The notes beneath the pieces are model-generated. The model made no database searches, had not been told where the DNA came from, and saw nothing but the letters and a program-made list of their open reading frames with translations. Below are positions 9,712-45,333 of a DNA stretch of 64,000 nucleotides, in pieces. Source of the DNA: Burkholderiales bacterium (GTDB taxonomy: Bacteria > Pseudomonadota > Gammaproteobacteria > Burkholderiales > Usitatibacteraceae). Made by a program: the position numbers and the translations under genes. The DNA lies in assembly GCA_025359985.1 (NCBI GenBank), contig JANYDB010000064.1, forward strand, positions 1 through 64,000, given 5' to 3'. The stretch's first letter is position 1. Each line of letters opens with the position of its first letter.

Positions 9712-11070
9712 ATGTCCGGACAAGTTACCATTAACAGCACGGTGTTGCAATTGCTGGTTGAAAAGTTGGCGCGCCCCGTTGAGGACGCAGCCCGCCGTCG
9801 TGCTGTGTGTCATATTATTGATTGGCTAGGCTGTGCGGCGTTGGGTGCACAATCACCAGCAGCAGCCGGTTTTAGCCATATTACCGCGAAGGGCGCTTAC
9901 GGGCCATGTCGCGCCATGGGTATGGATGGGCGGGACTGGTGGTATGCGCTGCAATTCAATGCGGCCGTAGGCAATCTTATCGAGATGGACGATGTACACC
10001 GTGATTCAATTTTGCATCCTGGCCCAATCATAATTCCCGCAGCCATCGCAATGGCCGAAAAAATAGGCGCATCCCCGCAGCGTCTGTTAACCGCGATCGT
10101 GCGCGGTTATGAAGCAACCATCCGTATTGGTCGAGCCCTCGGTGCATCGCATTACGCCTATTTTCATAACACATCAACTGCCGGCACTTTCGGGGCGGCG
10201 GCGGCGGCGGCTAATTTATTAAATTTAAATGCGCAGCAAACTACTTGGGCGCTGGCAAACGCCGGCAGCCGCACGGGTGGCCTGTGGCAAATGCGTCATG
10301 AGTCCTGCGAAACCAAATCGTTGCATAACGCGCAAGCTGCGCAAACTGGTGTGCAGGCAGCTTTGCTGGCGGCAGAAGGAGTGCGCGGGCCAATGAGCTT
10401 GCTAGAGGGCAGGCAAGGCCTATTCGCGGCGATGGCACCAGGCGCTGACGCGTATCAGGTGGTGGCCGATATAGATGATGAATGGCTGATTCACCAAGTC
10501 AGCTTTAAGCCTTGGCCTGCTTGTCGCCACGCCCATGCCGCTATCGATGCCGCACTTGCTATTCGAAGTAAGCTGCTGGCAGACGCGATGATGGCCGATA
10601 TTGCGGGTGTTGAGGTATCCACTTATCAAAGCGCAATTGATTTCTGCGACCAGCCCGCGCCTGCCACTGAGCAGCAAGCCAAATTTAGTCTGCAACATTG
10701 TGTGGCAGTTGTACTCACTGAGGGGGCGCCGTGGCTTGCGCAATTTTATGTGGAAAATTTAGGCACCGCCGAGGTAGTTGCATTGCGTAATAAAATTACG
10801 GTGCGCTCAAGCGCTGAATTTACGGCACGGTTTCCATATCATTATGGAGCGCATCTGCGGGTCACGCTGGCAGATGGCCGGGTGATCGAGCATCAGCAGT
10901 TCGATGCGCTAGGCGACCCTGAGCTGCCACTTACGCCTGTGCAAATTGCGCACAAAGCCCGACTATTGTTGACGCAGGCACACACCGTCGATGTAAACGG
11001 GCTAATCATGGCAACACTTGCGTTAGCGGATGGCGGCTCAATCCAGGCATTCACGGCAAAATGGCCATGA
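9712..11070 (+). CDS. MmgE/PrpD family protein, first of two
   Basis: The 452-residue protein shows the MmgE/PrpD fold: an N-terminal helical domain with HIIDWLGCAALGA, the active-site loop EMDDVHRDSILHPGPIIIPA (His/Asp-rich), a Gly/Ala-rich FGAAAAAANLL stretch, and a C-terminal beta domain beginning SFKPWPACRHAHAAIDAAL. The family includes 2-methylcitrate dehydratase, cis-aconitate decarboxylase and iminodisuccinate epimerase, all acting on polycarboxylates. The second member follows immediately. They may form a heteromer or act on successive intermediates. The start codon lies within the predicted operator, and a GTG ten codons downstream is an alternative start. Confidence 0.88.
   Translation: MSGQVTINSTVLQLLVEKLARPVEDAARRRAVCHIIDWLGCAALGAQSPAAAGFSHITAKGAYGPCRAMGMDGRDWWYALQFNAAVGNLIEMDDVHRDSILHPGPIIIPAAIAMAEKIGASPQRLLTAIVRGYEATIRIGRALGASHYAYFHNTSTAGTFGAAAAAANLLNLNAQQTTWALANAGSRTGGLWQMRHESCETKSLHNAQAAQTGVQAALLAAEGVRGPMSLLEGRQGLFAAMAPGADAYQVVADIDDEWLIHQVSFKPWPACRHAHAAIDAALAIRSKLLADAMMADIAGVEVSTYQSAIDFCDQPAPATEQQAKFSLQHCVAVVLTEGAPWLAQFYVENLGTAEVVALRNKITVRSSAEFTARFPYHYGAHLRVTLADGRVIEHQQFDALGDPELPLTPVQIAHKARLLLTQAHTVDVNGLIMATLALADGGSIQAFTAKWP
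9713..9722. promoter_or_regulatory. Predicted GntR operator, site A (TGTCCGGACA)
   Basis: A perfect 10-bp palindrome overlaps the start codon of the first PrpD gene and lies 22 bp from the start of the divergent GntR gene. The same core occurs at 26501, 32306 and 45166. GT-N4-AC spacing is compatible with GntR-family binding. Repression here would block both the operon and, possibly, the regulator. Confidence 0.7.
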
Positions 11071-12524
11071 GTGATCGCATCAACCTGATCATTTCGCATT
11101 TAGTAAGCCATCGTGATCCGGCAAGCGTACCCGCAAGCGCTCATGCTGCCGCCCTCATGTGGATGCAAGACAGTATCGGCGTAGCCATAGCCGGGCGAGC
11201 TGTACCGCAATCGCAACAACTACTGGCGGCCGTACGCGGCTGGGGCAGCGCTAATAACAATCAAAATAACAACCCAAACGAACACATCAGCGGCAATGCG
11301 AATGGCGCGCGAATTTGGGGAAGCAACGAATACCTGCCCACACCAAACGCGGCCCTGCTCAACGCCTTTCACATTCACAATCAGGAATTCGACTGCGTAC
11401 ATGAGCGTGCGGTAGTGCACCCAATGGCCGTCATCTTAGCGGCGCTTCTTTCCTATGCTGATGTGCGCGCAAAAAAAAATCCGGTGAGCGGCATGCAGCT
11501 CACGGCGGCCCTCGCACTATCAGTTGATGTTGCTACCGTCATCGGCATGAGTGCGCGTCGCGCCATTCGTTTTTTTCGTCCAGCGCAATGCGGGTGTCTG
11601 GGCGCTACTGCAGGGCTGGCACTACTGGCTGGGCTGGATGAAGCCCACATGCGCGACGCATTCGGGCTAGCCTACAGCCAGCTTGCAGGCACGATGCAGG
11701 CGCATATTGAAGGCACCCCCGCGCTGGCATTGCAAGTCGGCTTTGCTGCGCGAGCGGCTGTATGCGCAGTGGATTTAGCTGCACAGGGCTTTCGCGGCCC
11801 TCACGATATTCTCGATGGCAAACATGGCTATTTCGCACTGTTCGAGCCTGACGCAATCACCGCCGATGCCGTGGATTCGCCGTTTGCTGAGCTGGGGAAA
11901 ATATGGCAAGTAGAACGCGTCTCACATAAGCCCTTTCCCACCGGACGGGCAGCTCAGGGCGGTATTGCGGGTTTGAAAACGCTGATGCAACAACACGCGT
12001 TCACGGCGGACGATATCGATGCAATTGTCGTTTTTGCACCGCCATTGGTGCGGCAATTGGTTGATCGGCCCGCCAGCGTCGGCATGACGGCAAATTACGC
12101 ACGTTTGTGCATGCCGTTTTTGCTGGCCACTACCTTAAAGCATGGCACTGTGGGTTTAGCCGCCTATGCTGCCGAAGCGCTTGCTGACGAGGCCATCGTC
12201 AGTATGGCTGCATGCGTTTCCATGGCCGCAGACGGTAATGATGATCCGAACGCATTGCGTCCGCAGCGCATTGAAGTCACGTTAAAAGATGGTCAGCATT
12301 TTGCGCTTGCTATGCCCTATGTTTATGGCGCACCTGAAGCCCCCATGCTGCCGACCGAGCAACTGGAAAAATTTATAGCCTGCTGCGCACATGCGCCTGA
12401 ACCGCTGCCTGCTGAGAGTGCAACAACGTTGTTTGCTGCCATCCAAAATTTACCCAACCTTCCTGATGTTTCGGCCATTGTTGCGTTAATGGTTTTTTCT
12501 ACTGCGACCTCCACCTCAAAATGA
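11067..12524 (+). CDS. MmgE/PrpD family protein, second of two
   Basis: The start at 11067 overlaps the upstream stop as ATGA, the junction style used throughout this island; an ATG two codons earlier is possible. The roughly 485-residue protein keeps the PrpD landmarks: HNQEFDCVHERAVVHPMAVILAALL, FRPAQCGCLGATAGLALLAG, SHKPFPTGRAAQGGI and a C-terminal KDGQHFALAMPYVYGAP. It differs from its neighbour in the active-site loop (EFDCVHERAVVHP in place of EMDDVHRDSILHP), suggesting different substrates or subunits. The CoA-ligase gene overlaps its end by four bases. Likely role: dehydration, hydration, isomerisation or decarboxylation of a di- or tricarboxylic intermediate. Confidence 0.86.
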   Translation: MSDRINLIISHLVSHRDPASVPASAHAAALMWMQDSIGVAIAGRAVPQSQQLLAAVRGWGSANNNQNNNPNEHISGNANGARIWGSNEYLPTPNAALLNAFHIHNQEFDCVHERAVVHPMAVILAALLSYADVRAKKNPVSGMQLTAALALSVDVATVIGMSARRAIRFFRPAQCGCLGATAGLALLAGLDEAHMRDAFGLAYSQLAGTMQAHIEGTPALALQVGFAARAAVCAVDLAAQGFRGPHDILDGKHGYFALFEPDAITADAVDSPFAELGKIWQVERVSHKPFPTGRAAQGGIAGLKTLMQQHAFTADDIDAIVVFAPPLVRQLVDRPASVGMTANYARLCMPFLLATTLKHGTVGLAAYAAEALADEAIVSMAACVSMAADGNDDPNALRPQRIEVTLKDGQHFALAMPYVYGAPEAPMLPTEQLEKFIACCAHAPEPLPAESATTLFAAIQNLPNLPDVSAIVALMVFSTATSTSK

Positions 12525-13921
12525 CCTCACCTTTATATTTCGATTGTTTCGACTGGAAGAATATTCAGCAGGAGTACCCGCTGGGCGACGCCTTCCTGGC
12601 CCGCTACACCCATATCAGCCGCGATGCCTTGTTCGCGATTCAGGATGCACGTTTCAGAAAATGCCTAGAGCGCGCCTGGAAAATTCCGTTTTATCAGCGG
12701 CTGTGGGGTGCGCAAGGCATTGAACCGGGCGACATTAATGGCCTGATTGACATCACCAAACTACCGACCTTTTCCAAAACCGAATTGATGGAAAGCGTGG
12801 AGCTGGCCCCACCGCTAGGCGACTATCATGGGCTCGATAGTTATCCGGCGTCATTACGGCCACCCATGGTGCTGCACACCACCAGTGGCACCACCGGTCG
12901 TCCACAACCGTTGCCGTTTGGCCCACGTGGGCGTGAAATTCAAAATTTATTGCTGGGCCGCGCCTACACCCTGCAAGGCATCGGTGAGAATGACCGCATC
13001 CATTCCGTCTATGGCCACGGACTAATTAACGGCGGACATTATGTGCGTGAATCCGTTTTGCATTTCACCAGAGCCGTTTTTTTATCTGCTGGTACCGGCG
13101 TCGAAACCCGCTCTGCGCAACAGGTTCAGGTGATGAAAGATTTTGGTGTGTCCGTCATCGTTGGCTTTGCGGACTACATCAAGAAACTGGCCGAAGTCGC
13201 AGCTGAAGCGGGGATCGTGCCCGGGCGCGATATTCCGGTGCGCATTATTTCCGGTCATCTTGGCCGCGAGTCCCGTGACGCTTTGGCGCAATCATGGGGC
13301 GGTTGTGAAGTATTCGACTGGTATGGCGTCGGCGACACGGGCTGTATTGCCGCTGAGGGGCCGGATCATGACGGGCTGTATGTGATGGAAGACGCCCAGT
13401 ACGTTGAAATCGGCGATGTTGACACCGGGCAGCCGCTAGCCGATGGCCAAAATGGCAATCTGATTGTCACCTGTATTTATAAAGATGATTTATATCCGGT
13501 GATTCGATTCGACACCAAGGATGTGTCCAGCATTAAAACCGGCACCTCATCGATCGGGCTGGGTTTCAAGCGTATCGAAGGTTTTCTGGGCCGCAGCGAT
13601 AACATGATCAAGCTGCGCGGCATTAATATTTATCCGCAAGGCCTGGCGCCGGTGCTCGAAGAGGAGGCCAGTTTTGGCCGGGAGTTCATTTGTATTGCCG
13701 AACGCGACGCGAAGGGCCGCGATGAATTGACGGTGCGTATAGAAGTTATCGCGGGCCAAGAAAACGACGCGGCATTGGCCGGGCGTTTCGCCGATTTGCT
13801 CAAGCGCCATTTTGGGGTGCAGATGCATGTAACACTGGAACGTCTCGGAAGCCTGGCGCCACTGACCGGCATTGAGTCACGCCAAAAACCCATTCGCCTA
13901 ATCGACAAACGACATGGCTGA
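12521..13921 (+). CDS. Phenylacetate-CoA ligase-like AMP-forming ligase
   Basis: The 466-residue protein is of the PaaK type: the adenylate-forming loop HTTSGTTGRPQPLPFG (about 120), DWYGVGDTGCIAAEG in the middle, RFDTKDVSSI, and GRSDNMIKLRGINIYPQGL introducing the mobile C-terminal domain. These enzymes activate aromatic or other carboxylic acids with ATP and CoA. Its gene overlaps the second PrpD gene (ATGA) and the amidase gene (8 bp), so the three are translated from one message. The carboxylate it activates is unknown; an aryl or branched acid released from the primary substrate is plausible. Confidence 0.88.
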   Translation: MTSPLYFDCFDWKNIQQEYPLGDAFLARYTHISRDALFAIQDARFRKCLERAWKIPFYQRLWGAQGIEPGDINGLIDITKLPTFSKTELMESVELAPPLGDYHGLDSYPASLRPPMVLHTTSGTTGRPQPLPFGPRGREIQNLLLGRAYTLQGIGENDRIHSVYGHGLINGGHYVRESVLHFTRAVFLSAGTGVETRSAQQVQVMKDFGVSVIVGFADYIKKLAEVAAEAGIVPGRDIPVRIISGHLGRESRDALAQSWGGCEVFDWYGVGDTGCIAAEGPDHDGLYVMEDAQYVEIGDVDTGQPLADGQNGNLIVTCIYKDDLYPVIRFDTKDVSSIKTGTSSIGLGFKRIEGFLGRSDNMIKLRGINIYPQGLAPVLEEEASFGREFICIAERDAKGRDELTVRIEVIAGQENDAALAGRFADLLKRHFGVQMHVTLERLGSLAPLTGIESRQKPIRLIDKRHG

Positions 13922-15323
13922 TATGGGTAATATGCCAAAATATCAATCTGCACTATCTCTAAAAGAAGCGCTCATCAATATCGCGCGCGATAATGATCGC
14001 TTGAATATTTTTATGGATATGGCTAGCGGGCTAAGCTCTGCTCACGGTTGTAGTGGTGATGGTAGTGATGGTGGTGATATTGATAATACCGGCGCTATTC
14101 ATAATGCGCTGGCTGGCTTTAGTGTTGCGATCAAAGCCAATATTGCGGTGCGTGGATTGCCTTTTACGGCCGGCATGGGTGCTTTTCGCAACCGCATTGC
14201 TGAGCAGGATGCGCCAGTGGTTACGCTGCTTCGCGAAGCCGGAGCGATTATTCTCGGCACCGTTAATATGGATGAAGCCGCGCTCGGTGCGGAGACGAAT
14301 AATCCGCATTTTGGTCGCACCGAAAATCCACGATGGCCCGGCTTTACAGCCGGTGGTTCCAGCGGCGGTAGTGCGGCTGCGGTGGCCGCCGGATTTGCCC
14401 GCGCGGCACTGGGCACCGACACGATGGGGTCATGCCGCATACCGGCTGCCTACTGTGGTGTGGTGGGGTATAAACCCAGCTATGGCCGCATCGGCATGAA
14501 TGGCATTGAGCCACTCTCTCGCAGACTGGATCATGTTGGGGTGTTGGCGGCGAATATGGCGGATATTGTGTTGGTCGCCGATGTTGTTTGCCAATTCGAC
14601 TCAAGCTGTATCTGGGCTATCGACTACGCGCCGCCTGCGGTATCCATGGCAACATCTGCCGCAACTGCGCATACCGCTGATGCTACCCACCGCACTCTTC
14701 CCAACCCTATAGTCGGGCTTGAACAGCATCGGTTCGCAGTGCTTGACGAGGCCTCTGTGCAACGCCTGCAGCCTGCCGTGGCCAAGGCTTATCAGCAGGC
14801 CGTGCGCACCTTGCGGGGGGCGGGTGCTATCACTATCGCTCGATCAGTTGACCCAACACTGCTTGCGGCAGTGCGTCGTGCCGGGCTCTTACTGTGTGAA
14901 GCAGAACTGGCCATTTCGCTGGCGGCGGAATATCAGCGTGACGATGCCGGCGTGTCGCAACATCTGCGCAGCATGATCGCTTTCGGCGCCCATAAGAGTG
15001 CGGTTGATCTGGTTCGTGCCGGCGCAAAAATGGACGCGGCTATTCTGATCGAACGGCAATTACTTCAGGGTGTTGACGCGTTACTGTGGCCAACGGCACC
15101 GCAAACGGCATTTGCCTTCGATCAACCCGTGCCACCCGATCAGGCTGATTTTACGTGTCTTGCCAATTTTACCGGTGCGGCTGCGTTGAGCCTGCCACTA
15201 CCCGTAGGCTCAGGCTCAATGCCGGTCGGGCTGCAGATCATGACGCGACGCGGCGCTGATGCAGAGTTACTCGCGATCGGATGGGCCATCGAAAAAATTT
15301 TTCAGCTTGCCCCACCTTCCTGA
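13914..15323 (+). CDS. Amidase-signature-family amidohydrolase
   Basis: The 469-residue protein carries the Lys-Ser-Ser triad: Lys74 (VAIKANIA), Ser149 in TAGGSSGGSAAAVAAG and nucleophile Ser173 in GTDTMGSCRIPA. Two features are odd: the usual GGS before the nucleophile is MGS, and an Asp/Gly-rich insert (residues 46-57, GCSGDGSDGGDI) precedes the first strand. Family members hydrolyse amides, carbamates and half-amides of dicarboxylic acids. In this island the enzyme could hydrolyse the half-amide produced by the cyclic amidohydrolase at 20172-21656; that is inference. Nearest annotation alternatives are glutamyl-tRNA amidotransferase A-like or AtzF-like amidase. Confidence 0.87.
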   Translation: MADMGNMPKYQSALSLKEALINIARDNDRLNIFMDMASGLSSAHGCSGDGSDGGDIDNTGAIHNALAGFSVAIKANIAVRGLPFTAGMGAFRNRIAEQDAPVVTLLREAGAIILGTVNMDEAALGAETNNPHFGRTENPRWPGFTAGGSSGGSAAAVAAGFARAALGTDTMGSCRIPAAYCGVVGYKPSYGRIGMNGIEPLSRRLDHVGVLAANMADIVLVADVVCQFDSSCIWAIDYAPPAVSMATSAATAHTADATHRTLPNPIVGLEQHRFAVLDEASVQRLQPAVAKAYQQAVRTLRGAGAITIARSVDPTLLAAVRRAGLLLCEAELAISLAAEYQRDDAGVSQHLRSMIAFGAHKSAVDLVRAGAKMDAAILIERQLLQGVDALLWPTAPQTAFAFDQPVPPDQADFTCLANFTGAAALSLPLPVGSGSMPVGLQIMTRRGADAELLAIGWAIEKIFQLAPPS

Positions 15324-15393
15324 ACCTCGCTGAACCATCCTGAATACCCCAGCCGCTCACCACACCCAACGCCGAAAACTAAAGGAAAATATC

Positions 15394-16647
15394 ATGGCCC
15401 CAGAGGCAAGTACATCGATCAGCAAACCGACTCGCATCTATCCGTGGTTGATGGCGCTACTGGCCATGTTCATGTTGATGGTCACCAACGGCTTCACCAC
15501 CACCAGCATTACCGGCTACGATGAGTCGTTGCTGAAGGAATTCGGCTGGACTCGTGGGGATTTAAAATTCCGCGATCTGATCACGCTGATGGTCGCAGGA
15601 TTATCGGCCCCATTTGCGGGCGCTCTGATCGACAAAGTGGGCGTGCGCAAACTGATGCTCATCGGCAGCTTGTTAATGGCTGCCGCCTATTTTTCTTACG
15701 GCCACATTACAAGCTTGACGCAGATGTATTTGATCCACGTGGTATTTGGTGTGGTGCTGGTTTGCGCTGGTTTAAATATTGCCGTGATCATGGTTTCGCA
15801 GTGGTTTGTAAAGCAGCGTGGCACGGCCATTGGCATTGCACTGGTGGGCAGCAGTTTGGGCGGGGTGGTGTTTACGCCGATGATTGTGGCGCTGGTAGGT
15901 AATCTCGGCTGGCGCGATACTTTTCAATGGATGTCACTATTCAATCTCGTTTTGTTCGCGGTTTGTTTTTGGCTGGCACGGCGACCCGACGAAATCGGCC
16001 AAAAACCATTGGGCTTTGGCGAAGTTTCGAATGGTCAATCGCAACCCGCATCGGTTAATGATGTGACCTATCCAGAGGCATTGCGCACGGTCAGTTTTTG
16101 GGCATTGGCAGTTGTGGCGATGACCACTTTTTACGCCCTGCTCGCCTTGGCCGGACATCTTTTTCTGCATTTGCGCGGCTTTGGCTGGACGCCACGGGCA
16201 GCGGGATTTGGCGTGAGCATTTTATTTACCATGGGTCTTACCAGCAAATTTCTATTCGGACTGCTGGTTGATTACTTCAATCTGCGTAAAGTTTTTTTCA
16301 TCAATATTTTGGTGATGCTCGCAGGATTGCTGTTGCTCGCCTCTCAAAAAGTAGAGCTGATCTGGCCCGCTATTATCGTCACCGGTTTCGGCTGGGGCGG
16401 GCTGTATACATTGCTGCAGCTGCAGGCCGTAAATAATTTTGGCTTGACCCATTCCGGAAAAATTCTCGGCACTATTACGCTCATGGACGCGATCGCGGGC
16501 GGCCTCGGAATATGGCTGACCGGCGTATTGTTTGATCGCTTCAAAAGCTACGAGATAGCGTTCTACATTATGGTGGGCCTGGTAATTCTGGCGCTCATTG
16601 CATCTACCCAAATCAAGCGTGAAATCAGGACGCGCCAGATTGCCTAG
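15394..16647 (+). CDS. Major facilitator superfamily transporter
   Basis: The 417-residue protein has about twelve membrane helices. It shows the MFS loop 2-3 pattern (FAGALIDKVGVRKLMLIG) and a related motif in the second half (LLVDYFNLRKVFF). The overall look (LMALLAMFMLMVTNGF at the start, KEFGWTRGDLKFRD) resembles oxalate/formate-type or monocarboxylate transporters. It probably imports the island's substrate or a carboxylate intermediate across the inner membrane, complementing the TonB-dependent receptor at 42685-45129. AAAGGAAAAT forms a ribosome-binding site ahead of the ATG. Confidence 0.88.
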   Translation: MAPEASTSISKPTRIYPWLMALLAMFMLMVTNGFTTTSITGYDESLLKEFGWTRGDLKFRDLITLMVAGLSAPFAGALIDKVGVRKLMLIGSLLMAAAYFSYGHITSLTQMYLIHVVFGVVLVCAGLNIAVIMVSQWFVKQRGTAIGIALVGSSLGGVVFTPMIVALVGNLGWRDTFQWMSLFNLVLFAVCFWLARRPDEIGQKPLGFGEVSNGQSQPASVNDVTYPEALRTVSFWALAVVAMTTFYALLALAGHLFLHLRGFGWTPRAAGFGVSILFTMGLTSKFLFGLLVDYFNLRKVFFINILVMLAGLLLLASQKVELIWPAIIVTGFGWGGLYTLLQLQAVNNFGLTHSGKILGTITLMDAIAGGLGIWLTGVLFDRFKSYEIAFYIMVGLVILALIASTQIKREIRTRQIA

Positions 16648-16689
16648 TTCAATTCTTAACTCGCCATCAATAATACGTTCCCTGTCTCG

Positions 16690-18120: not shown

Positions 18121-18130
18121 TAGCGCGCTG

Positions 18131-18769
18131 ATGCAACCCTTCACTATTTTGCGCGCGCCCGCCGCGCCACTCATGCGCTCTGATATCGATACCGATGCGA
18201 TCATCCCGTCACGTGAAATGACACAGGTCGGCAAAACCGGTTTAGGCTCACGTTTATTTGCCAATTGGCGCTACATCGATGTGCATCAAAAACGCGAAGA
18301 GCGTGCTGAATTTGTACTTAATCAGGCGCCCTATCGACACGCCCAGGTGTTGCTGGCGGGCGAAAATTTTGGCTGCGGCAGCTCGCGCGAAGGTGCGGTG
18401 TGGGCGCTGCATGATTTCGGCATTCGGTGCATCATCGCCCCCTCATTTGGCAGCATCTTTCGCGCTAATTGTCTGCGCAACGGACTGCTTCCAATCATTC
18501 TTGAGTCAACGACTGTTGAAAAAATAGCGCAGCAGATGGAAGTCAGCAATGGCAGCGCCAGCATTGTGATTGACCTTATTGCCTGCACCGTTACCGATGC
18601 TGACGGCACAAATTATCCTTTCAGTATTCCGCCGCAGCAACGCGAGATGCTGTTGCGGGGACTTGATTCAATCGGGCTCGCCATAAATCGGCTGCCCGAG
18701 ATAAATTTATTTCATGAAAATTTAAACAGGCAACAGCCGTGGTTATTCGCGGGCCATCTTAAAGATTGA
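18131..18769 (+). CDS. LeuD-like aconitase-family hydro-lyase, small subunit
   Basis: The 212-residue protein has the small-subunit signature of isopropylmalate dehydratase: DIDTDAIIPSREM at the N-terminus, LLAGENFGCGSSREGAVWAL, and IAPSFGSIFRANCLRNGLLPI. It forms the swivel domain that completes the active site of the neighbouring LeuC-like subunit. The first gene ends 10 bp upstream, and there is a 90-bp gap before the next gene. It is likely that the two proteins form a heterodimeric or heterotetrameric iron-sulphur hydratase of the island's pathway. Confidence 0.87.
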   Translation: MQPFTILRAPAAPLMRSDIDTDAIIPSREMTQVGKTGLGSRLFANWRYIDVHQKREERAEFVLNQAPYRHAQVLLAGENFGCGSSREGAVWALHDFGIRCIIAPSFGSIFRANCLRNGLLPIILESTTVEKIAQQMEVSNGSASIVIDLIACTVTDADGTNYPFSIPPQQREMLLRGLDSIGLAINRLPEINLFHENLNRQQPWLFAGHLKD

Positions 18770-18859
18770 CGTGCTCGTTCATCTTTAGCTTTATGTAAAT
18801 ATAGGTCGACTCAGGCCCAATGTATTGCTGATCATTTTATTCATCACTCAGGAGTCACC

Positions 18860-34481: not shown

Positions 34482-34486
34482 GCCTC

Positions 34487-35389: not shown

Positions 35390-35428
35390 ATCAATTTAAA
35401 AAGACTGAAAAACATTAAAGGAAGCGTG

Positions 35429-35947: not shown

Positions 35948-35963
35948 GCCAGATCATTTATCT

Positions 35964-36029
35964 AAACACTAGTATTGGCGGACTTTTTGAAGCAAAAATG
36001 CCCTGCATAAGCCGCCAATAATAGAGTTT
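35964..36029. repeat. Dispersed palindromic intergenic repeat, copy R2
   Basis: It starts AAACACTAGTATTGGCGG and ends GCCGCCAATAATAGAGTTT, so its arms TATTGGCGG and CCGCCAATA pair perfectly over 9 bp around a 31-base loop. It is the clearest copy of the family and has the reverse orientation of R1. It lies within an operon, between MaoC and acyl-CoA dehydrogenase genes. Confidence 0.7.
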
Positions 36030-36081
36030 GATTCACCAAAATTATACTGAAGCTGTAATGAAACACGATGAAGGAAACACC

Positions 36082-37254: not shown

Positions 37255-38483
37255 TCATGACCCGCACGCCCCCGCCGGCAGTTTCTGCTGCTAACCTCCC
37301 CCTCGCCGGTATTCGTATCATCGCAGTTGAGCAATATGGCGCGGGCCCGTATGGCTCAAGCTATCTGGCTGATCTGGGCGCTGAAGTGATCAAGATCGAG
37401 AACCCGAACACCGGCGGCGATGTGTCGCGTGCCAACGGGCCGTTTTTTCTGGGCGAAGGTGATAGCGAATTTTTCCAGACTTTCAACGCCAACAAAAAAA
37501 GTTTTGCACTCGACCTGAAAGCGCCAGGCGGTCGCGCCGTGTTTGAAAAATTAGTCATCTCGGCCGACGCGGTACTCAACAATCTGCGTGGGGATCAGCC
37601 CGCCAAGCTAGGCATCGACTATCCAACACTGTCGAAATTAAAACCATCTATCGTCTGCGCCCATCTGTCTGCCTATGGACGCAACAATGATCGAACCGAC
37701 TGGCCGGGCTATGATTATCTGATGCAGGCCGAAGCCGGATTTTGCATGCTCACAGGTGAGCCGGATGGGCCCCCTGCGCGGTTTGGTTTATCCGTAGTAG
37801 ATTTTATGACCGGCATGACCATGTCGATTGCGCTGCTGTCTGGCGTCATCGGCGCGCTAAAAAGCGGGCGCGGACGTGATGTGGATGTCAGCTTGTTCGA
37901 TGTCGCACTGCATCAGCTTAGCTATCCGGCAACCTGGTATCTAAATAATCATTATGTGACTCAACGCATGCCTCGCGGGGCGCATCCGACCACGGTGCCA
38001 GCGCAAATGTATAACGCCAAAGGCGGGCATGTGTTTGTGTTGTGCATGATCGATAAATTCTGGCGCGCTTTATGTGTCGGGCTTCAGCGGCCTGAGCTGG
38101 CAGATGACCCGCGCTTTGATTCCATCCCGAACCGGCGTCTCAATCGCGATGCGTTAACCCCGATTCTGGATGCCGAGTTTGAAAAACATACGGCTGATGA
38201 ATGGATGCAAAAACTCGGTGGCGTGATTCCGATTGCGCCGGTTTACGATCTTGCCCGCAGTCTCGATAATCCCTATGTGGCGCAGGTTGGCATGATTCAA
38301 TCGCTTAATCACCCGGCCAATCCCAACCTGCGCCGTCTGGCGAATCCCATCAAGCTTGACGGCCAGCGCCTGCCCGTCGCACCCGCCAAAACGCTCGGTG
38401 CCGATACCGCAGCACTGCTCAATGAGTTAGGATTCGATGCTGCCGAAATCGATGCACTGCGGCAGTCGAAAGCCATTGTTTAA
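37251..38483 (+). CDS. CaiB/BaiF family (family III) CoA transferase, first of three
   Basis: The 410-residue protein shows family III hallmarks: GIRIIAVEQYGAGPYGSSYLADLGAEVIKIENP, NANKKSFALDLKAPGGRAVFEKL, AHLSAYGRNNDRTDWPGYDYLMQAEAGF, where the catalytic Asp is expected in the YDYLMQA region, and GLSVVDFMTGM. These enzymes move CoA between carboxylates via an Asp-anhydride mechanism. GTG at 37251 overlaps the previous stop; ATG at 37257 is the alternative start. Three paralogues in one operon suggest different acid/CoA pairs or hetero-oligomers. Confidence 0.9.
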   Translation: MIMTRTPPPAVSAANLPLAGIRIIAVEQYGAGPYGSSYLADLGAEVIKIENPNTGGDVSRANGPFFLGEGDSEFFQTFNANKKSFALDLKAPGGRAVFEKLVISADAVLNNLRGDQPAKLGIDYPTLSKLKPSIVCAHLSAYGRNNDRTDWPGYDYLMQAEAGFCMLTGEPDGPPARFGLSVVDFMTGMTMSIALLSGVIGALKSGRGRDVDVSLFDVALHQLSYPATWYLNNHYVTQRMPRGAHPTTVPAQMYNAKGGHVFVLCMIDKFWRALCVGLQRPELADDPRFDSIPNRRLNRDALTPILDAEFEKHTADEWMQKLGGVIPIAPVYDLARSLDNPYVAQVGMIQSLNHPANPNLRRLANPIKLDGQRLPVAPAKTLGADTAALLNELGFDAAEIDALRQSKAIV

Positions 38484-38504
38484 ATTATTTAAAGTGAGCC
38501 ACGG

Positions 38505-39662
38505 ATGAAGCTTGCCGGCGTTAAGGTCATCGACCTTTCACTGTTTTTACCGGGCCCGCATCTGACGATGCTGATGGCCGATCATGGTGCCGAGGTGATC
38601 AAACTTGAGCCCCCAGGCGAGGGGGAACCGGTGCGCCATATTGGCGCGATCCAAGCGGGCCATAGCGTGTGGTTTCGCAATACCCATCGCGGCAAAAAAA
38701 GTATTTGCCTGGACTTGAAAAATCCGGTTGAACTGGCGGCGCTGCTCGCCTTGATCGACACCGCCGATATCGTGGTGGAAGGTTTTCGTCCGGGTACGGC
38801 AGAGCGACTGGGCATCGACTATGACACCGTGGCAGCACGTAATCCGCGCATTATTTATTGCGCGATCTCAGCCTTCGGACAAACCGGGCCAAAACGCTTC
38901 AAACCCGCGCATGATCTGGCCATACAAGCCGATAGCGGCCTGATAAGCCTGAACCTGGGCGCTGATGGTAAACCGGCGATGCCTAATATGCCGGTAGCCG
39001 ATATGGCCGCATCGCTGATGGCGTTATCTGGTATTTTAATGGCGCTCTATCGCCGGGAAAAAACTGGCCAAGGCGATTACCTTGATATTTCGATGCAGGA
39101 TGCGTTGCTGTCGTGGACGCCTAATGTGATGGGGGTGCCATTTACACAAAACCGTGCGCCTGAGGTGAAACAACAACGCAGCTTTGGCGGGGGCAGTTTT
39201 TATAATCTTTATGAAACCGCGGATCACCGTTTTCTGGCGCTTGGGGGCAGTGAAGCCAAATTCGTTAAAAGCTTGTTGACGATGCTTGAGCGTGAAGATT
39301 TGATTGCAGCCGCCAGCACCGCACCCGGGCCTGAGCATGAGCCGGTTAAACAATTTTTAACCACTGCATTCGCCACCAAAACGCTTGCGCAATGGACCAC
39401 TCTGCTGGATGCCATCGATGTTTGCTGGGCACCGGTACGCGATTTGTATGAGGCAACCCAGGAGTTACATCTGGCTGCGCACGACACGATTCATCGAGAT
39501 GAATCAGGCGCGTTAAATTTGAATAACCCGATCCGCTTTCGCCACGAGGCGGGCGCGCCCGATTGGCGTTTGCCCGCAGTCGGTGAGCATAATGATGAGG
39601 TGCTGGGTGGTCTGAGCACCGCCAGCACAAATCATAAAATAGATAAAAATGAATTAGCATGA
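38505..39662 (+). CDS. CaiB/BaiF family (family III) CoA transferase, second of three
   Basis: The 385-residue protein has the same N-terminal Rossmann pattern (GVKVIDLSLFLPGPHLTMLMADHGAEVIKLEPP), HRGKKSICLDLKNP, and AISAFGQTGPKRFKPAHDLAIQADSGL with a conserved Asp in HDLAIQA for catalysis. FKPAHDLAIQ is close to formyl-CoA or alpha-methylacyl-CoA racemase members, so racemase activity on a 2-methylacyl-CoA is an alternative. It lies 21 bp after the first transferase and overlaps the HMG-CoA lyase gene by 4 bp. Confidence 0.9.
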   Translation: MKLAGVKVIDLSLFLPGPHLTMLMADHGAEVIKLEPPGEGEPVRHIGAIQAGHSVWFRNTHRGKKSICLDLKNPVELAALLALIDTADIVVEGFRPGTAERLGIDYDTVAARNPRIIYCAISAFGQTGPKRFKPAHDLAIQADSGLISLNLGADGKPAMPNMPVADMAASLMALSGILMALYRREKTGQGDYLDISMQDALLSWTPNVMGVPFTQNRAPEVKQQRSFGGGSFYNLYETADHRFLALGGSEAKFVKSLLTMLEREDLIAAASTAPGPEHEPVKQFLTTAFATKTLAQWTTLLDAIDVCWAPVRDLYEATQELHLAAHDTIHRDESGALNLNNPIRFRHEAGAPDWRLPAVGEHNDEVLGGLSTASTNHKIDKNELA

Positions 39663-40624
39663 TGACTAAAGTGCCCGTGACATTACCTGATGCGCTGCCC
39701 GTAGTTCTGATTAGCGAAGTCGGCCCGCGTGATGGCTTGCAAAGCATCAGCCGCATCATGACCACGGCTGATAAATGTCGCTGGTTGACGGCACTTTATC
39801 AAGCGGGGCTCCGCGAAATTGAGGTGGCCTCGTTTGTTCCCGCCGCGCTATTGCCGCAGATGGCGGATGCCGCTGCGGTGGTGGCACATGCGCTCACGCT
39901 GCCGGGGCTGACGGTGATGGCACTGGTGCCGAACCTGCGCGGCGCACAAGCCGCATTAGCCGCTGGCGTACATAAGCTCACTATTCCGGTATCGGCCAGC
40001 GCCGCACACTCACTGGCGAATGTGCGGAAATCGCGCGAGCAAATGGTCGAAGAGGTGCGGGCCATTGTGGCGTTGAAAAACGAGCTTGCGCCGCACGTAA
40101 AAATTGAAGCTGGTATTGCCACCGCGTTTGGCTGCACCCTGCAAGGCACGGTCGCCGAAGATGATGTCGTGCGGCTGGCGGCGAGCGTGATCGAGGCAGG
40201 CGCTAATGAATCGGGCCTCTCTGACACCACCGGCTATGCTAATCCGGCACAAGTACAACGCCTGTTTCGCCGCGTGCGTGCCGAAATTGGTGATAAAACC
40301 GGTGCGGCTCATATGCACAATACACGCGGCTTGGGACTGGCAAATTGCCTGGCCGCGTTTGAGGCTGAGGTGCGAACGTTTGACTCTTCACTAGGTGGAT
40401 TGGGCGGCTGCCCGTATGCACCCGGCGCCTCCGGCAATGTCGTGACCGAAGACCTGGTATTTATGTTTGAAGCGATGGGTGTGAACACCGGGGTTGATCT
40501 GGATGCCCTGATAGCTGCACGCGACGTGCTCAAAGCGGGCCTGCCTGATGAGCCACTTTACGGCATGACCCCTGAAGCTGGTTTGCCGAAAGGTTTTCAG
40601 CCGGCGCCCAGGGTCTCAAAATGA
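39659..40624 (+). CDS. Hydroxymethylglutaryl-CoA lyase family protein
   Basis: The 321-residue protein has the HMGL/DRE-TIM pattern: LISEVGPRDGLQSI at the start, IEVASFVP, TTGYANPAQVQRLF, HMHNTRGLGLAN and the catalytic loop DSSLGGLGGCPYAPGASGN with the conserved Cys. It cleaves 3-hydroxy-3-methylglutaryl-CoA or a related 3-hydroxy-3-alkyl dicarboxylyl-CoA into acetyl-CoA and an oxo acid. It overlaps the flanking CoA-transferase genes by 4 bp each. The paired transferases would supply its CoA-ester substrate. Confidence 0.93.
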   Translation: MMTKVPVTLPDALPVVLISEVGPRDGLQSISRIMTTADKCRWLTALYQAGLREIEVASFVPAALLPQMADAAAVVAHALTLPGLTVMALVPNLRGAQAALAAGVHKLTIPVSASAAHSLANVRKSREQMVEEVRAIVALKNELAPHVKIEAGIATAFGCTLQGTVAEDDVVRLAASVIEAGANESGLSDTTGYANPAQVQRLFRRVRAEIGDKTGAAHMHNTRGLGLANCLAAFEAEVRTFDSSLGGLGGCPYAPGASGNVVTEDLVFMFEAMGVNTGVDLDALIAARDVLKAGLPDEPLYGMTPEAGLPKGFQPAPRVSK

Positions 40625-41886
40625 ATGACCTCAATCTGAATAAGCCTATGTTGCCACCGCTCCCTGCTGCACCGTTAGCTACAATTACAGCCACACCTTC
40701 ACCACTACCGTTGGCCGGTATTCGCGTGATCGAATTTACCCACATGGTGATGGGACCGACCTGCGGCATGGTGCTGGCGGATTTGGGCGCAGAAGTCATC
40801 AAGGTTGAACCCATCGGCGGCGACAATACCCGCAAGCTGCTCGGCTCCGGTGCGGGATTTTTTGCGATGTTCAACCGCAATAAAAAAAGTATCGCCCTCG
40901 ATCTGCATCAACCTGAAGGCAAGGAAGCAGCGCTTAAGCTGATTGCGACGGCGGATGTAGTCAGCGAAAATTTCAAGCCCGACACTATGCGCAAACTCGG
41001 GCTCGATTACAGCTCGCTCAAAAAGCTGAATGAGCGGCTGATTTACGTGAGCCACAAAGGTTTTTTACCGGGCCCCTATGATCATCGTACCGCGCTGGAC
41101 GAGGTGGTGCAGATGATGGGCGGGCTCGCCTACATGACCGGGCGCCCGGGAGACCCACTGCGCGCAGGATCAAGTGTCAACGACATCATGGGCGGGATGT
41201 TTGGCGCAATCGGCGCGATGGCCGCATTGATGCAGCGTGCGCAAACCGGCAAAGGCCAGGAAGTACAGTCTGCGCTTTTCGAAAACAATGTCTTTTTGGT
41301 CGCTCAGCACATGATGCAGTTTGCGATCACCGGCAAAGCAGCGGCACCGATGCCTGCGCGGATTTCAGCGTGGGCGATTTATGATGTGTTCACGGTAAAA
41401 GATCATGAGCAAATATTTTTGGCCGTGGTCAGCGATACTCAGTGGGCAATTTTCTGTGATGCATTTGGCTATGGCGATTTAAAAACCGACCCGCGTTTGC
41501 AGTGCAACAACGCACGCGTTCAGGCGCGCGAATGGATGATGCCGGTGCTGCGAGCAAGGCTCGCTGAACATTCTGCCCATGCACTCAGCACCTTATTTGA
41601 AAAACATGGCTTACCGTTTGCCCCCATTACCCGCCCGCATGATTTGTTTGATGATCCGCATCTGCAGGCGACCGGTGGACTCGCTTCGATCAGATTGCCG
41701 GATGGCAATACCACCCGCACCCCGCTGCTGCCGTTAACCCTTGATGGTCAGCGGCCCGGCGTGCGCCTAAATCCACCACAGCTGGGCGAACACAACGAAG
41801 AAGTGCTGCGCGGACTCGGCTACGCGGATGAGCAAATCCGGCAGATGATAACCAACCGTATTATTTTTCAGGAGAAACCAGCATGA
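40621..41886 (+). CDS. CaiB/BaiF family (family III) CoA transferase, third of three
   Basis: The 421-residue protein has GIRVIEFTHMVMGPTCGMVLADLGAEVIKVEP, FNRNKKSIALDLHQPEGK and SVNDIMGGMFGAIGAMAAL of family III transferases. Its active-site segment is PYDHRTALDEVVQMMGGLAYMTG, different from the other two, which points to another substrate. An N-terminal proline/threonine-rich stretch of about 30 residues precedes the fold. Its ATGA start overlaps the HMG-CoA lyase gene, and the secreted VOC gene overlaps its end. Confidence 0.9.
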   Translation: MNDLNLNKPMLPPLPAAPLATITATPSPLPLAGIRVIEFTHMVMGPTCGMVLADLGAEVIKVEPIGGDNTRKLLGSGAGFFAMFNRNKKSIALDLHQPEGKEAALKLIATADVVSENFKPDTMRKLGLDYSSLKKLNERLIYVSHKGFLPGPYDHRTALDEVVQMMGGLAYMTGRPGDPLRAGSSVNDIMGGMFGAIGAMAALMQRAQTGKGQEVQSALFENNVFLVAQHMMQFAITGKAAAPMPARISAWAIYDVFTVKDHEQIFLAVVSDTQWAIFCDAFGYGDLKTDPRLQCNNARVQAREWMMPVLRARLAEHSAHALSTLFEKHGLPFAPITRPHDLFDDPHLQATGGLASIRLPDGNTTRTPLLPLTLDGQRPGVRLNPPQLGEHNEEVLRGLGYADEQIRQMITNRIIFQEKPA

Positions 41887-42515
41887 ACTTGATGAAACCT
41901 CGCGCGCTCGCCATGCCATTTGCGATGCCATCTGCTGCATCGCTTGCTTTATTGATCGCGTGCCTGTTTGCCGCAACCACCTCTCTGCCGACGATGGCAG
42001 AGCCCGTTGTTGACAGCGAACGCGTCGCTATTGATGTTCGACGCACCACGCTTATTGTGCGTGACATTGATAAATCGCTGCCACTGTACCGCGACGCACT
42101 TGGCCTGAAGGTGGTGTACGACCAAAAAATCGGCGGCGGCAAAGATAGCGAGGGCAAAGAAACCCCACCCACAGTGCGTTTAGTATTGCTGCGCGCCAAC
42201 GACACGTTTATTGGTGCGTTAGGTCTGATGCAGCGCCTAAATGATCTCAAGCCGACACCCGCAGAAAATAAAAAGCCGATGGCGGGCGCCATGATTGTGG
42301 TGATCAATGCAAAAGACCTTGAAGAACGATTCCCCAAAATAAGTAAAGTGCCCGGCGTAACCGTTGCCACTGCGCCTGAGCGCATCGAGTATCCCGCACC
42401 CGGTGGCGGTGTTATCCCGGTGCTGTTCAGCGCGATCTACGACCCGGATGGATTTTTTATCGAGATTAATAAAATTCTGGGAACGCCGGCTGGTACAGAG
42501 CCGGTCAAGAAATAA
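41883..42515 (+). CDS. Exported VOC-superfamily (glyoxalase-like) protein
   Basis: The 210-residue protein opens with a long signal peptide (ALLIACLFAATTSLPTMA-EP) and a glyoxalase-like domain: RRTTLIVRDIDKSLPLYRDALGLKVVYDQK, VRLVLLRANDTFIGALGLMQRL and SAIYDPDGFFIEINKIL. The terminal EIN...K strand carries the Glu commonly used for metal binding. Export is unusual for VOC proteins and points to a periplasmic role such as binding or opening the primary substrate. AGGAG precedes the ATG. It is the last gene before the bidirectional terminator. Confidence 0.82.
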   Translation: MNLMKPRALAMPFAMPSAASLALLIACLFAATTSLPTMAEPVVDSERVAIDVRRTTLIVRDIDKSLPLYRDALGLKVVYDQKIGGGKDSEGKETPPTVRLVLLRANDTFIGALGLMQRLNDLKPTPAENKKPMAGAMIVVINAKDLEERFPKISKVPGVTVATAPERIEYPAPGGGVIPVLFSAIYDPDGFFIEINKILGTPAGTEPVKK

Positions 42516-42547: not shown

Positions 42548-42584
42548 AAAAAAGCCGGGGGATTTTTAGTCCCCCGGCTTTTTT
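42548..42584. terminator. Bidirectional intrinsic terminator
   Basis: AAAAAAGCCGGGGGA pairs perfectly with TCCCCCGGCTTTTTT around TTTTTAG. It has poly-T on both strands and sits between the convergent VOC and TonB-receptor genes, so it should end both transcripts. Confidence 0.95.
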
Positions 42585-42684: not shown

Positions 42685-45129
42685 TTAGAACTCGTACGAC
42701 AGCGTCACACCGTACTGACGTAATCTCGGCAAGAAATCAACAGCCGTACGGCGAAATGTGGCCGGATCGAGGTAGCGGAATCCATTCAACGCGCTGTCGT
42801 CATCGGTTGCATTCTTGACAAAAGCAGTGATGCGCCAATCGTTGTTGCGCAGGCCAACGCTGGCATTGACATGGGTGAAGGGATCAGCCCAGATGAGATT
42901 TTGAATCTCTGCATAACGACGCGATTGATAGACCACATCAGCGCGTGCAAACATATACATACCGGCGGTACCTACCGGAAAATCAAGCGCTGCCGATGCG
43001 GCCGCTGAATGCTTCGGGCTGCGCGGCAAAGTAGCGCCTGCAACAGAGCGATTACCGCCGAAGACCGTGCCATTGGTGGTTTCAGTACCCTCAGTGGCTT
43101 TGGCATCGGTGTATGCATAATTGCCGCTGAGCGTGAGCCAGCGATTTGCCTTCATGATCACTTCAGATTCAAAACCGCGGGTACGCGCCTTGCCGACGTT
43201 GTTAACGATGGTCGTCGTCGTCACGGCACCGGTGAATGGATTTTGTACGGTTGAAATATTGGACAGTTGCAGGCCTGAAATATTATTTTGGTACAGCGCA
43301 AGATTCACCCGCACACGGCGCTCGGCAAATTCGCTTTTCACACCAACTTCTGCCGAGGTGATTTTTTCGCCTTCAAAAGCAAAGGTGCTGGCAGGCAATC
43401 CCGGGGTGGTGTTGAAGCCACCACTTTTTGAACCCTTAGCAGCTTGTGCATACAGCAAAATATCTTTTGATGGTTTGTAGTCAAGCGTGAAACGAGGCGC
43501 AAAGTCCTTGAATGTCCTATCACCATTTACGAAGCAGACTTGCCCCGCCGTGCAGGTGCCGACCGTGACACTAGCGGTACCCAGCGCAGTCCCGCCGACC
43601 TGTACCCGCTCACTGTTGTAGCGACCTTCAGCCGAAATTTTTAATTGCTCACTGATAGCATATTGAACGCGGCCAAATGGCGCGACATTATGAATGCTCG
43701 AATTTGATTTAGGCCGCAGCGGATCAGCGATGGTTTGCAATAACGCATTTTGCGCGATCACACCAGAAGATACGCCCTCGGTTTTTTCCTGATAATAGAA
43801 GCCACCGAATAACCAGGTGAAGGCCACATCCTGCGCTGACATCAAGCGCAATTCCTGGGAATAATATTGCAGCTTGTCACGGTCATAACTTAACCATGAA
43901 GATGCCGGGAACCCAAAGCCAGGAGCGAAGCGTGTACCGTTATACGATTGATCGGCACCGAGGTTCGATGATTGGCGTGTGTAGGCGCTTTGTGAAGTGA
44001 ACGTCTGGCCATTATCAAAACGGTAATTAAGCGTTACTGATCCACGCAAAACGCTGCGATCCAGGCCGGCGATGTTGCCATAATTGGTGCCCGTTTTGGG
44101 ATCAATATAGTTTTGGAAGTCAGCCTCGTTGCGCTTGACGATCGTGCCTGAAAATGTCGATGCACCACAAGGCCAGCCATTGTTACGCGTGGTGAGCGAA
44201 GCGGGGAAGGCCGGATCCGGAAAACCGGTTGCGGGATTATTGCCCACGATATTGATGGTGCGGCCGTTACACGTCGCACCATTAGCTACATTGGTTGAGC
44301 CGTTCTGGTTAATGACCACGCCGCCCGCCTGAATCGGCACGGTCCGCACGGTAGCACCAAATATTCCGTCACGATCAAGTGAGTAATCAACCGAGGTCAG
44401 CACATCGAGTTTTTTGGACGGTGTGAATAACAACTCAGCACCGCCTGAATCTGTGCGCTCATTGCCGATTTTATTGCCACTTAAGCTATTGGTGTACCGG
44501 CCACCATATTCATAATGTTTGGCGCGGATGCGCACTGACAGCACATCCGGCAGAATCGGCAGGGTGACCGCGCCAAACTGGGATTGCTCGCCTTGACCGG
44601 CGAAAGTGGTGGAGATGCGGCCGGTCAATTCATTATCCGGCTTCACCGTAACGTAGTTAATCGCGCCGGCGTAGGTAGATCGACCATAGAGCGCTGATTG
44701 GGGCCCCTTTATCACCTCAACACGCTGCGCGTCGTCGAGCAGCATGCTCAGCGCGGCATCGCGCACGAACACACCGTTGATAAACACTGATACGGGTTGC
44801 GGCGCTTCTGGCCTTAACGCAGATATACCGCGAATCACCGGCCGTTCGGCGGTGCGACCAAAATCGGCAGAATAAGTGAGCCCTGGCGTGTATTGCGACA
44901 GCTCGCTGATCGAGGTGACGCCGAGATCCTGGAGCGTTTTGCCGGTCAAGACCTGAATGGAAAGCGGCACGTCCTGAAGTCGTTCGCCCACTTTACGCGC
45001 CGTTACAACCACCTCAGCCAACGCTGCGCTTTCGTCGGTTTTAGCCGCTGGCGCGATCTGCGCTAGGACAGGGTAGGTCATGACAGCTACGGTTACCAGC
45101 AGCAGTCGCCTGGATAGAGACTTTTTCAT
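42685..45129 (-). CDS. TonB-dependent outer-membrane receptor
   Basis: The 814-residue protein has a signal peptide (cleavage about residue 24), a candidate TonB box (EVVVTARK, about 40), a plug domain with RPVIRGISALR and RVEVIKGPQSALYGRSTYAGAINYVT, and a beta-barrel ending YGVTLSYEF. Such receptors take up ligands too large for porins using TonB energy. AGGGAGC precedes the ATG. Operator D1 lies 35 bp upstream, and D2 another 21 bp beyond. It resembles receptors found with aromatic- or terpenoid-degradation loci rather than iron-siderophore receptors; no Cys or TBDT signalling domain is seen. Its ligand is probably the island substrate. Confidence 0.93.
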   Translation of the reverse strand: MKKSLSRRLLLVTVAVMTYPVLAQIAPAAKTDESAALAEVVVTARKVGERLQDVPLSIQVLTGKTLQDLGVTSISELSQYTPGLTYSADFGRTAERPVIRGISALRPEAPQPVSVFINGVFVRDAALSMLLDDAQRVEVIKGPQSALYGRSTYAGAINYVTVKPDNELTGRISTTFAGQGEQSQFGAVTLPILPDVLSVRIRAKHYEYGGRYTNSLSGNKIGNERTDSGGAELLFTPSKKLDVLTSVDYSLDRDGIFGATVRTVPIQAGGVVINQNGSTNVANGATCNGRTINIVGNNPATGFPDPAFPASLTTRNNGWPCGASTFSGTIVKRNEADFQNYIDPKTGTNYGNIAGLDRSVLRGSVTLNYRFDNGQTFTSQSAYTRQSSNLGADQSYNGTRFAPGFGFPASSWLSYDRDKLQYYSQELRLMSAQDVAFTWLFGGFYYQEKTEGVSSGVIAQNALLQTIADPLRPKSNSSIHNVAPFGRVQYAISEQLKISAEGRYNSERVQVGGTALGTASVTVGTCTAGQVCFVNGDRTFKDFAPRFTLDYKPSKDILLYAQAAKGSKSGGFNTTPGLPASTFAFEGEKITSAEVGVKSEFAERRVRVNLALYQNNISGLQLSNISTVQNPFTGAVTTTTIVNNVGKARTRGFESEVIMKANRWLTLSGNYAYTDAKATEGTETTNGTVFGGNRSVAGATLPRSPKHSAAASAALDFPVGTAGMYMFARADVVYQSRRYAEIQNLIWADPFTHVNASVGLRNNDWRITAFVKNATDDDSALNGFRYLDPATFRRTAVDFLPRLRQYGVTLSYEF

Positions 45130-45164: not shown

Positions 45165-45176
45165 TTGTCCGGACAT
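45165..45176. promoter_or_regulatory. Predicted GntR operator, site D1 (TTGTCCGGACAT)
   Basis: The perfect 10-bp core TGTCCGGACA lies at 45166-45175, 35 bp before the TonB-receptor start. A second near copy lies 32 bp away centre to centre. Confidence 0.75.
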
Positions 45177-45196
45177 ATTATATCACCCACTATTTA

Positions 45197-45208
45197 TTGT
45201 CCAGACAA
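45197..45208. promoter_or_regulatory. Predicted GntR operator, site D2 (TTGTCCAGACAA)
   Basis: It differs from the 12-bp consensus by one base. Its centre is 32 bp from that of D1, close to three helical turns, a spacing that would place two bound dimers on the same face of the DNA. Confidence 0.65.
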
Positions 45209-45321
45209 AAAGCGGGCCGATGCCAGGCTGGCAACTGATCGACTAAAACCCGCTGAAAAGGGGCTTTAGCGCCATAGCTAAAAAGTAGTATTCATCAACC
45301 TCTAATGATAGGATTTAGTAC

Positions 45322-45333
45322 TTGTTCGTACAA
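45322..45333. promoter_or_regulatory. Possible degenerate GntR operator, site D3 (TTGTTCGTACAA)
   Basis: Ten of twelve bases match TTGTCCGGACAA. It ends 11 bp before the ATG of the divergent amine oxidase gene, where a bound protein would block transcription or translation initiation. Confidence 0.4.

Follow-up and report, generated by a model that had tools for sequence, protein, structure and literature searches.

A short palindrome, TTGTCCGGACAA, recurs in the control regions of a gene cluster in a Burkholderiales bacterium of the Usitatibacteraceae (assembly GCA_025359985.1, contig JANYDB010000064.1, positions 1 to 64,000, the whole stretch of 64,000 nucleotides being referred to here as the window), and it is very probably the operator of the GntR/UTRA protein of the HutC subfamily encoded at 8963-9691. 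The sites, their statistics, their co-occurrence with the regulator gene and their conservation are observed, and from these we infer binding, repression, the operon structure and an inducer. A first-pass annotation of the same DNA had already proposed a single regulon of about 35 kb under the adjacent GntR/UTRA protein. Comparative analysis points the same way, as regulator and operator co-occur, the site is kept with its likely targets after rearrangement, and the arrangement recurs in two distant genomes (G225 and G725); the predicted regulon nevertheless extends beyond 35 kb, to a TonB receptor gene elsewhere in the genome (on C1) and, in relatives, to unlinked genes.

The four exact copies of the core TGTCCGGACA named in that annotation were all re-found, at 9713, 26501, 32306 and 45166, and the two near copies that it listed are present as weaker sites, with one mismatch to the 12-mer at 45198 and two at 45323 (TTGTTCGTACAA). 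The placement of the sites in control regions was likewise confirmed, five of the six being intergenic and the sixth, at 9713, overlapping a start codon, although non-coding DNA makes up 4.6% of 8963-46835 by our own gene calls. Another match with one mismatch, at 16148 within the MFS gene 15394-16647, is probably due to chance. Under a first-order Markov model 0.040 exact 10-mers are expected per 64 kb and four were seen (P ~1e-7), while a third-order model gives 0.018 for the window. Shuffled windows contained on average 1.63 matches at up to one mismatch, with six reached in 1 of 100 shuffles, and every other palindromic 10-mer occurs at most twice in the window. The G+C content of the region differs mildly from that of its flanks.

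Scanning the whole assembly (3,431,187 bases in 129 contigs) yielded five copies of TGTCCGGACA, four in the window and the fifth at C1:48722, whereas the reversed pattern used as a control gave two; the exact motif is thus not equally frequent among unrelated genes. The full TTGTCCGGACAA was found three times, against 0.1-0.2 expected. Outside the window there are six 12-mers with one mismatch. Five are inside open frames of 229-810 residues; the remaining one stands 16 bp from the exact C1 copy, in a 118-residue frame that we take as spurious, and this pair precedes the likely start of a TonB-receptor gene by ~150-170 bp. A genome scan allowing two mismatches, which had been put forward as a check, cannot discriminate: it gave 108 matches compared with 126 for the reversed control, and with such matches at background only exact or near-exact copies carry information. 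An explanation by which the palindromes arose by chance, or are a repeat that serves some other function, could draw on this background and on the first- and third-order expectations of 2.1 and 0.98 exact 10-mers for the genome. What sets the sites apart is their clustering and placement, not a genome total of which ~1-2 would be expected by chance, and given the clustering probability, the recurrence in six genomes of one genus and in G225 and G725, eight in all, and the scarcity of the motif in genomes of the same genus that lack the regulator, we give this explanation almost no credence.

The gene next to the first site had been annotated as a GntR/UTRA regulator, and Pfam agrees: both GntR (PF00392, 77.7 bits, 5.3e-22) and UTRA (PF07702, 53.3 bits, 3.5e-14) pass their cut-offs, with an N-terminal GntR winged helix and a C-terminal UTRA domain in the arrangement of the HutC subfamily. 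The protein scores below the equivalog cut-offs for HutC (TIGR02018, 103.3 versus 220 bits) and PhnF (TIGR02325, 106.5 versus 156.8 bits), and phmmer aligns it with its family members NagR (YvoA; E 3e-11) and DasR (E 5e-9); it is a further member of the known GntR/UTRA (HutC) class. Sites of the HutC subfamily mostly follow GT-N4-AC (excerpt of PMC4494728), and the candidate site, TTGT-CCGG-ACAA, is a palindrome with GT and AC 4 nt apart. Its central CG stands in place of the TA of the subfamily core GTMTAKAC, which is therefore not matched, although the same excerpt describes this core as the commonest form rather than a strict one and lists regulators with other sites. The histidine utilisation repressor HutC of Pseudomonas is comparable as a UTRA repressor with a palindromic operator, TGTA-N2-TACA, in the same GT-N4-AC frame, and its protected regions overlap promoter elements (excerpt of PMC12977541), much as the candidate sites here adjoin -10 elements. 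It differs in that the operator centre here is CCGG, no hut gene was recognised among the annotated genes, and the equivalog score is 103 versus 220.

NagR, a repressor tuned by effectors for which DNA complexes have been solved, reads two neighbouring G bases with Arg38 and Arg48 (excerpt of PMC4333415). Here the corresponding bases are T-G, and when Ile35, Arg45 and His46 are matched to NagR residues through the phmmer alignment, Arg45 is invariant over 11 aligned rows while the place of Arg38 is taken by Ile, Leu, Ala, Ser or Val, never Arg. Retention of Arg45 and lack of an Arg at the Arg38 place would fit a single G in each TTGT half-site. A rule linking His46 to the CG centre was also considered and rejected, as G039 has Tyr with the same operator.

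We compared 61 genomes, 13 of the same genus and 48 at family and order level. The regulator was found at E <1e-79 in six genomes of the genus including our own, with orthologs 53-55% identical, and these six contain 3, 8, 5, 10, 8 and 10 exact 12-mers. The seven genomes without the regulator (80-99% complete, so that it could be missed in some) contain 0, 0, 1, 0, 0, 0 and 0, and the single copy, in G004, sits in an open frame of 344 residues. At all six regulator loci of the genus an operator lies beside the regulator gene, which argues for the autoregulation suggested earlier. Four of the 48 more distant genomes have one exact 12-mer each, and that of G039 is ~110 bp upstream of its own regulator homolog, 33% identical. 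Just upstream of homologs of 30% identity in G017 and G019 stands TTGTCCGTACAA, and each of three mycobacterial homologs (27-28%) is preceded, within 265 bp of the match, by the only WTGT-N4-ACAW site in 20 kb.

When 398 genomes spanning the phylum were searched with a regulator profile, four matched at E 1e-50, namely our own genome, G225, G426 and G725. In G225, which belongs to another family of the class, the GntR protein is 36% identical to that of the window and 40% to the G009 ortholog, and its gene adjoins PrpD1-PrpD2-PaaK-amidase, with an operator variant altered at one end before PrpD1. Three of the four exact copies in G225 are inside the cluster: one precedes HapK-SDR-PuuE-RipC-RipB-acyl-CoA dehydrogenase-CoA-transferases, whose proteins are 53-86% identical to those of the window, a second is in the gap between a TonB receptor gene and the hydrolase gene, and the third is close to the 5' end of a prolyl-oligopeptidase-like gene. 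Operator variants were also found at C18:146900 and C1:963134 of this genome. G725, detected at phylum level, has a GntR protein 32% identical to that of the window and 37% to that of G009, with two of its three exact copies before the HapK operon and a one-end variant before PrpD1.

Like the lack of enrichment at two mismatches, several of these comparisons weigh against the assignment of the operator to this regulator. No site was seen in the loci read for G013 (where the gene is partial), G038 and a second G039 homolog; within 5 kb of the fourth G225 copy (C8:161315) there is no pathway match, and no pathway genes are near the third G725 copy (C32:233857). G225 was first noticed through a pathway protein, though the regulator profile found it again, and its cluster carries two more UTRA homologs (27-29%; L121:170-874 and L112:11707-12411), so that another paralog could share sites there; these extra genes suggest duplicated regulators sharing the pathway. 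The G426 regulator, 37% identical to that of the window and 43% to that of G009, has genes for an amidase and ETF-QO as neighbours, yet a matching operator was not found in G426, also not beside the regulator gene. The regulon could be real but bound mainly by some other protein, either a paralog of the GntR/UTRA type or a factor unrelated to it, with the 8963-9691 gene as one of the targets, for co-occurrence cannot tell a regulator from a co-inherited target, and the additional UTRA genes of G225 and the operator-less regulator of G426 point in that direction. We consider this improbable, because the motif class agrees with HutC regulators, the operator adjoins homologs of 30-40% identity in otherwise rearranged genomes, and residues and bases agree with those of NagR.

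The operator also follows its putative targets. In strain UKL13-2 (CP012157) the same set of genes is divided between two blocks (L048-L050), and operators precede the corresponding operons. Its DUF1838 gene, 69% identical to 25469-26392, is located at a distance of ~300 kb, with an exact operator that precedes the ATG by 15 nt, and the same holds for G009. In both genomes an exact operator is located at the 5' end of the open frame of an unlinked ETF-QO gene (80% identical); ETF-QO is the expected partner of acyl-CoA dehydrogenases. On one side of a further UKL13-2 copy is an operon for two additional PuuE-like proteins, an acyl-CoA dehydrogenase and an isochorismatase-family protein; on the other side a gene for a HacA/LeuC-like hydratase runs divergently. 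A pair of sites with the spacing of the C1 pair precedes a TonB receptor gene in UKL13-2, G009 and G007, with the longest open frame running across the pair in UKL13-2; when the receptors of the regulon were compared, those of UKL13-2 and G009 matched the C1 receptor best, at 31% identity. Three further observations concern these genomes. The LeuCD-like hydratase of the window (16690-18769) is replaced in UKL13-2 (L048:8165-10328) and G009 by a HacAB/LeuCD-type pair of ~30% identity, also behind an operator. A predicted cyclophilin gene has an exact upstream operator in both (L053:2149-3891 and L059:4181-6766), with FG-GAP repeats in UKL13-2. Finally, a G009 gene with a guanylate/adenylate-cyclase domain (L062:3140-4531) starts at a TTGTCCGGACAT site, which could be chance.

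At 51 non-redundant sites from loci of six genomes we looked for -10 hexamers scoring at least 4 bits (one site with three mismatches was dropped and L061 left out). The hexamer directly abuts the operator at 25 sites, a number that rises to 37 when overlaps of 1-2 bases are counted as well, whereas any three neighbouring offsets tested between 16 and 42 bp give 0-5 sites, which makes repression at the transcription start likely. Single offsets of 6 bp (8 sites) and 15 bp (9 sites) also stand above the rest, the former being the start-codon class. In this class, with gaps of 6 or 7, the ATG of the first MmgE/PrpD gene forms the first three bases of ATGTCCGGACAA (Met-Ser-Gly-Gln), and the frame continues through it in seven of eight genomes examined, G725 being the exception, which suggests that the first MmgE/PrpD message may be leaderless in the genus. 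The regulator ATG of the window is 21 bp from that of the first MmgE/PrpD gene and both genes share AGTATACT, which we infer to serve both directions. The stretch 9691-9712, which seems to leave no space for leaders and has the operator within a start codon, can be described as a candidate bidirectional leaderless promoter. Consensus promoter scans gave totals no higher than those of shuffles (17 versus 15.5 and 17 versus 15.4), and single promoter calls consequently rest on their position beside the operator.

In the proposed mechanism, a dimer would recognise a pair of TTGT half-sites with 4 bp between them. Most sites lie directly behind or just over the end of the -10 element (at +1), or at a first codon 6-7 nt behind it, so that the bound protein should block RNA polymerase; a pathway intermediate would bind the UTRA domain and release the repressor. 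The predicted regulon would comprise the regulator, the operons of one pathway at the four control regions of the window (~35 genes) and the TonB receptor encoded elsewhere. An activator, or a protein that represses at some promoters and activates at others, might be read from some sites that precede promoter elements or fall inside them (45197; L050 5388; L055 2270) and from the 12 of 51 in which neither the abutting position nor that at 6-7 nt is occupied by a -10 hexamer; since the 37 sites that abut or slightly overlap the -10 element are in a position for repression, we regard activation as quite unlikely. The features underlying the proposed repressor regulon are collected in Table 1.

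Table 1. Features of the regulator, its candidate operators and the putatively controlled genes in the window
Feature	Position	Strand	Basis or remark
Methyltransferase, small protein, DUF3598-like protein	6773..8884	-	order behind regulator kept in UKL13-2 and G006
GntR/UTRA (HutC-subfamily) regulator, 242 residues, proposed repressor	8963..9691	-	Pfam; orthologs 53-55% identical
AGTATACT, palindromic -10-like element	9698..9705		6 nt from ATG of both divergent genes
Candidate operator ATGTCCGGACAA	9712..9723		ATG is start codon of first MmgE/PrpD gene
Putative operon 1: two MmgE/PrpD, PaaK-like ligase, amidase, MFS, LeuC/LeuD-like hydratase, CpeT-like calycin	9712..20104	+	
Putative operon 2 (minus): DUF1838, enoyl-CoA hydratase, DUF1330, CN-hydrolase, aldehyde dehydrogenase, cyclic amidohydrolase (20172-21656)	20172..26392	-	
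Promoter-like GTGACA-17-TAATAT, ends at base preceding operator	26471..26499	+	consensus match only
Candidate operator TTGTCCGGACAA	26500..26511		in divergent gap
Putative operon 2 (plus): alpha/beta hydrolase, FAD oxidoreductase, two-domain VOC-fold protein (30070-30987), CurA-like reductase	26757..32086	+	
Promoter-like TTGACC-17-TAAAAT, ends at base preceding operator	32276..32304	+	consensus match only
Candidate operator TTGTCCGGACAA	32305..32316		48 nt before likely HapK-like start at 32353
Putative operon 3: HapK-like, SDR, PuuE-like (33450-34481), RipC-like lyase, RipB-like hydratase, acyl-CoA dehydrogenase, three CoA-transferases, HMG-CoA-lyase-like, glyoxalase	32353..42515	+	
Terminator-like hairpin, T-tailed on both strands	42557..42574		between operon 3 and TonB gene
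TonB-dependent receptor	42685..45129	-	
Candidate operator TTGTCCGGACAT	45165..45176		between TonB receptor and amine oxidase genes
Promoter-like TGGACA-17-TAATAT of TonB receptor gene	45175..45203	-	consensus match only
Second candidate operator copy TTGTCCAGACAA	45197..45208		over likely -35 of TonB gene
Weak candidate operator copy TTGTTCGTACAA	45322..45333		just before amine-oxidase start
Flavin amine-oxidase family protein	45345..46835	+	RR-type N terminus

The predicted targets look like one catabolic pathway with a lower half of the itaconate/methylsuccinate type. The itaconate/methylsuccinate cluster of Pseudomonas and Cupriavidus joins MmgE/PrpD, acyl-CoA dehydrogenase, CoA-transferase, hydratase, lyase and glyoxalase genes (excerpt of PMC12290011), and MmgE/PrpD, acyl-CoA dehydrogenase, CoA-transferases, RipB/RipC-like proteins and glyoxalase are shared with the window. 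Here, unlike there, they are set among imidase-/amidase-like proteins, TonB receptors and calycins, and both the RipB-like (246.5 versus 340) and RipC-like (177.8 versus 375) proteins score below their equivalog cut-offs; with these scores missed and many extra genes present, a simple itaconate or methylsuccinate cluster was rejected. The families of the upper half (imidase-/amidase-like proteins, hydratases, bilin-lyase-like families and TonB receptors) suggest that cyclic imides or pyrrolic pigments may be the feed; the best solved relative of the PuuE-like protein is PuuE itself.

The 305-residue protein 30070-30987 has no Pfam match and is predicted to adopt a two-domain VOC fold (pLDDT 90; best Z 21.8 over 241 aligned residues, root mean square deviation 2.8), while a sequence search of the PDB gave a best E of 0.31. 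Homologs occur in 9 of 369 genomes of the class, our own included. Nine of 15 stretches around 15 homologs contain at least two further cluster matches, among them HapK-like, DUF1838, DUF1330, cyclic amidohydrolase (61-63%), LeuCD-like, DUF3598-like and regulator genes, and the other six (L100, L101, L102, L108, L110 and L113) have one cluster match at most. The DUF1838 model (pLDDT 78) is most similar to mixed beta-barrels (best Z 8.3), with calycins (DUF3598, nitrobindin and CpeS) at 6.8-7.7. CpeT (PF06206) was found in 3 of 41 genomes searched, our own included, and in 1 of 14 control genomes, a cyanobacterium; it was rejected as a constant part of the pathway, being absent from the other 12 genomes of the genus. 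A CpeT-like gene (24%) is near the VOC gene in G399. Our own genome, from a non-cyanobacterium, has two CpeT/CpcT (phycobiliprotein-lyase-like) genes, 18860-20104 and G000:C96:7568-8095 (L098). Just outside the predicted regulon, a bacterial-globin-like gene lies beside a DUF3034 gene (4793-6239).

Cyclic-imide or pyrrolic compounds, for example cyanobacterial bilins, are put forward purely as a hypothesis for the substrate, based on the gene content. The chemistry of bilin-derived imides, which underlies this argument, is general knowledge. TonB receptors and bilin-lyase-like calycins (CpeT, DUF3598) could take up and hold bilins or their fragments, and oxidative enzymes would release alkyl-maleimides or -succinimides. 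The opening of these to alkyl-maleates or -succinates would fall to PuuE-like imidases and half-amidases, and LeuCD/HacAB-like hydratases, MmgE/PrpD, CoA-transferases and RipB/RipC-like proteins would lead to pyruvate and acyl-CoAs such as glutaryl-CoA, with the repressor sensing one intermediate. The pathway would be one of lake bacteria whose relatives have been met together with cyanobacteria. UKL13-2 has been reported to depend on the bloom-forming cyanobacterium Aphanizomenon (excerpt of PMC5248499). That the operator marks a dedicated, widespread proteobacterial pathway consuming cyanobacterial or other tetrapyrrole breakdown products is nonetheless doubtful and proposed here tentatively. 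No bacterial gene set for bilin, imide or tetrapyrrole degradation was found in the literature, as judged by titles and the beginnings of abstracts, and the operator string was met only in an unrelated context; within the literature searched, the pathway marked by the operator appears to be undescribed.

A 12-bp site thus ties ~35 genes of mixed annotation, and unlinked genes besides, into one testable regulon, and provides a parts list for an uncharacterised catabolic pathway that would be common to distant Proteobacteria, UKL13-2 among them. Operator matches may be used to find missing pathway genes, as with DUF1838, ETF-QO and the extra PuuE-like proteins, and the proposed repressor offers a route to the true substrate via ligand screening. 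Should the substrate be a bilin or an imide, the regulon would bear on how such pigments are mineralised.

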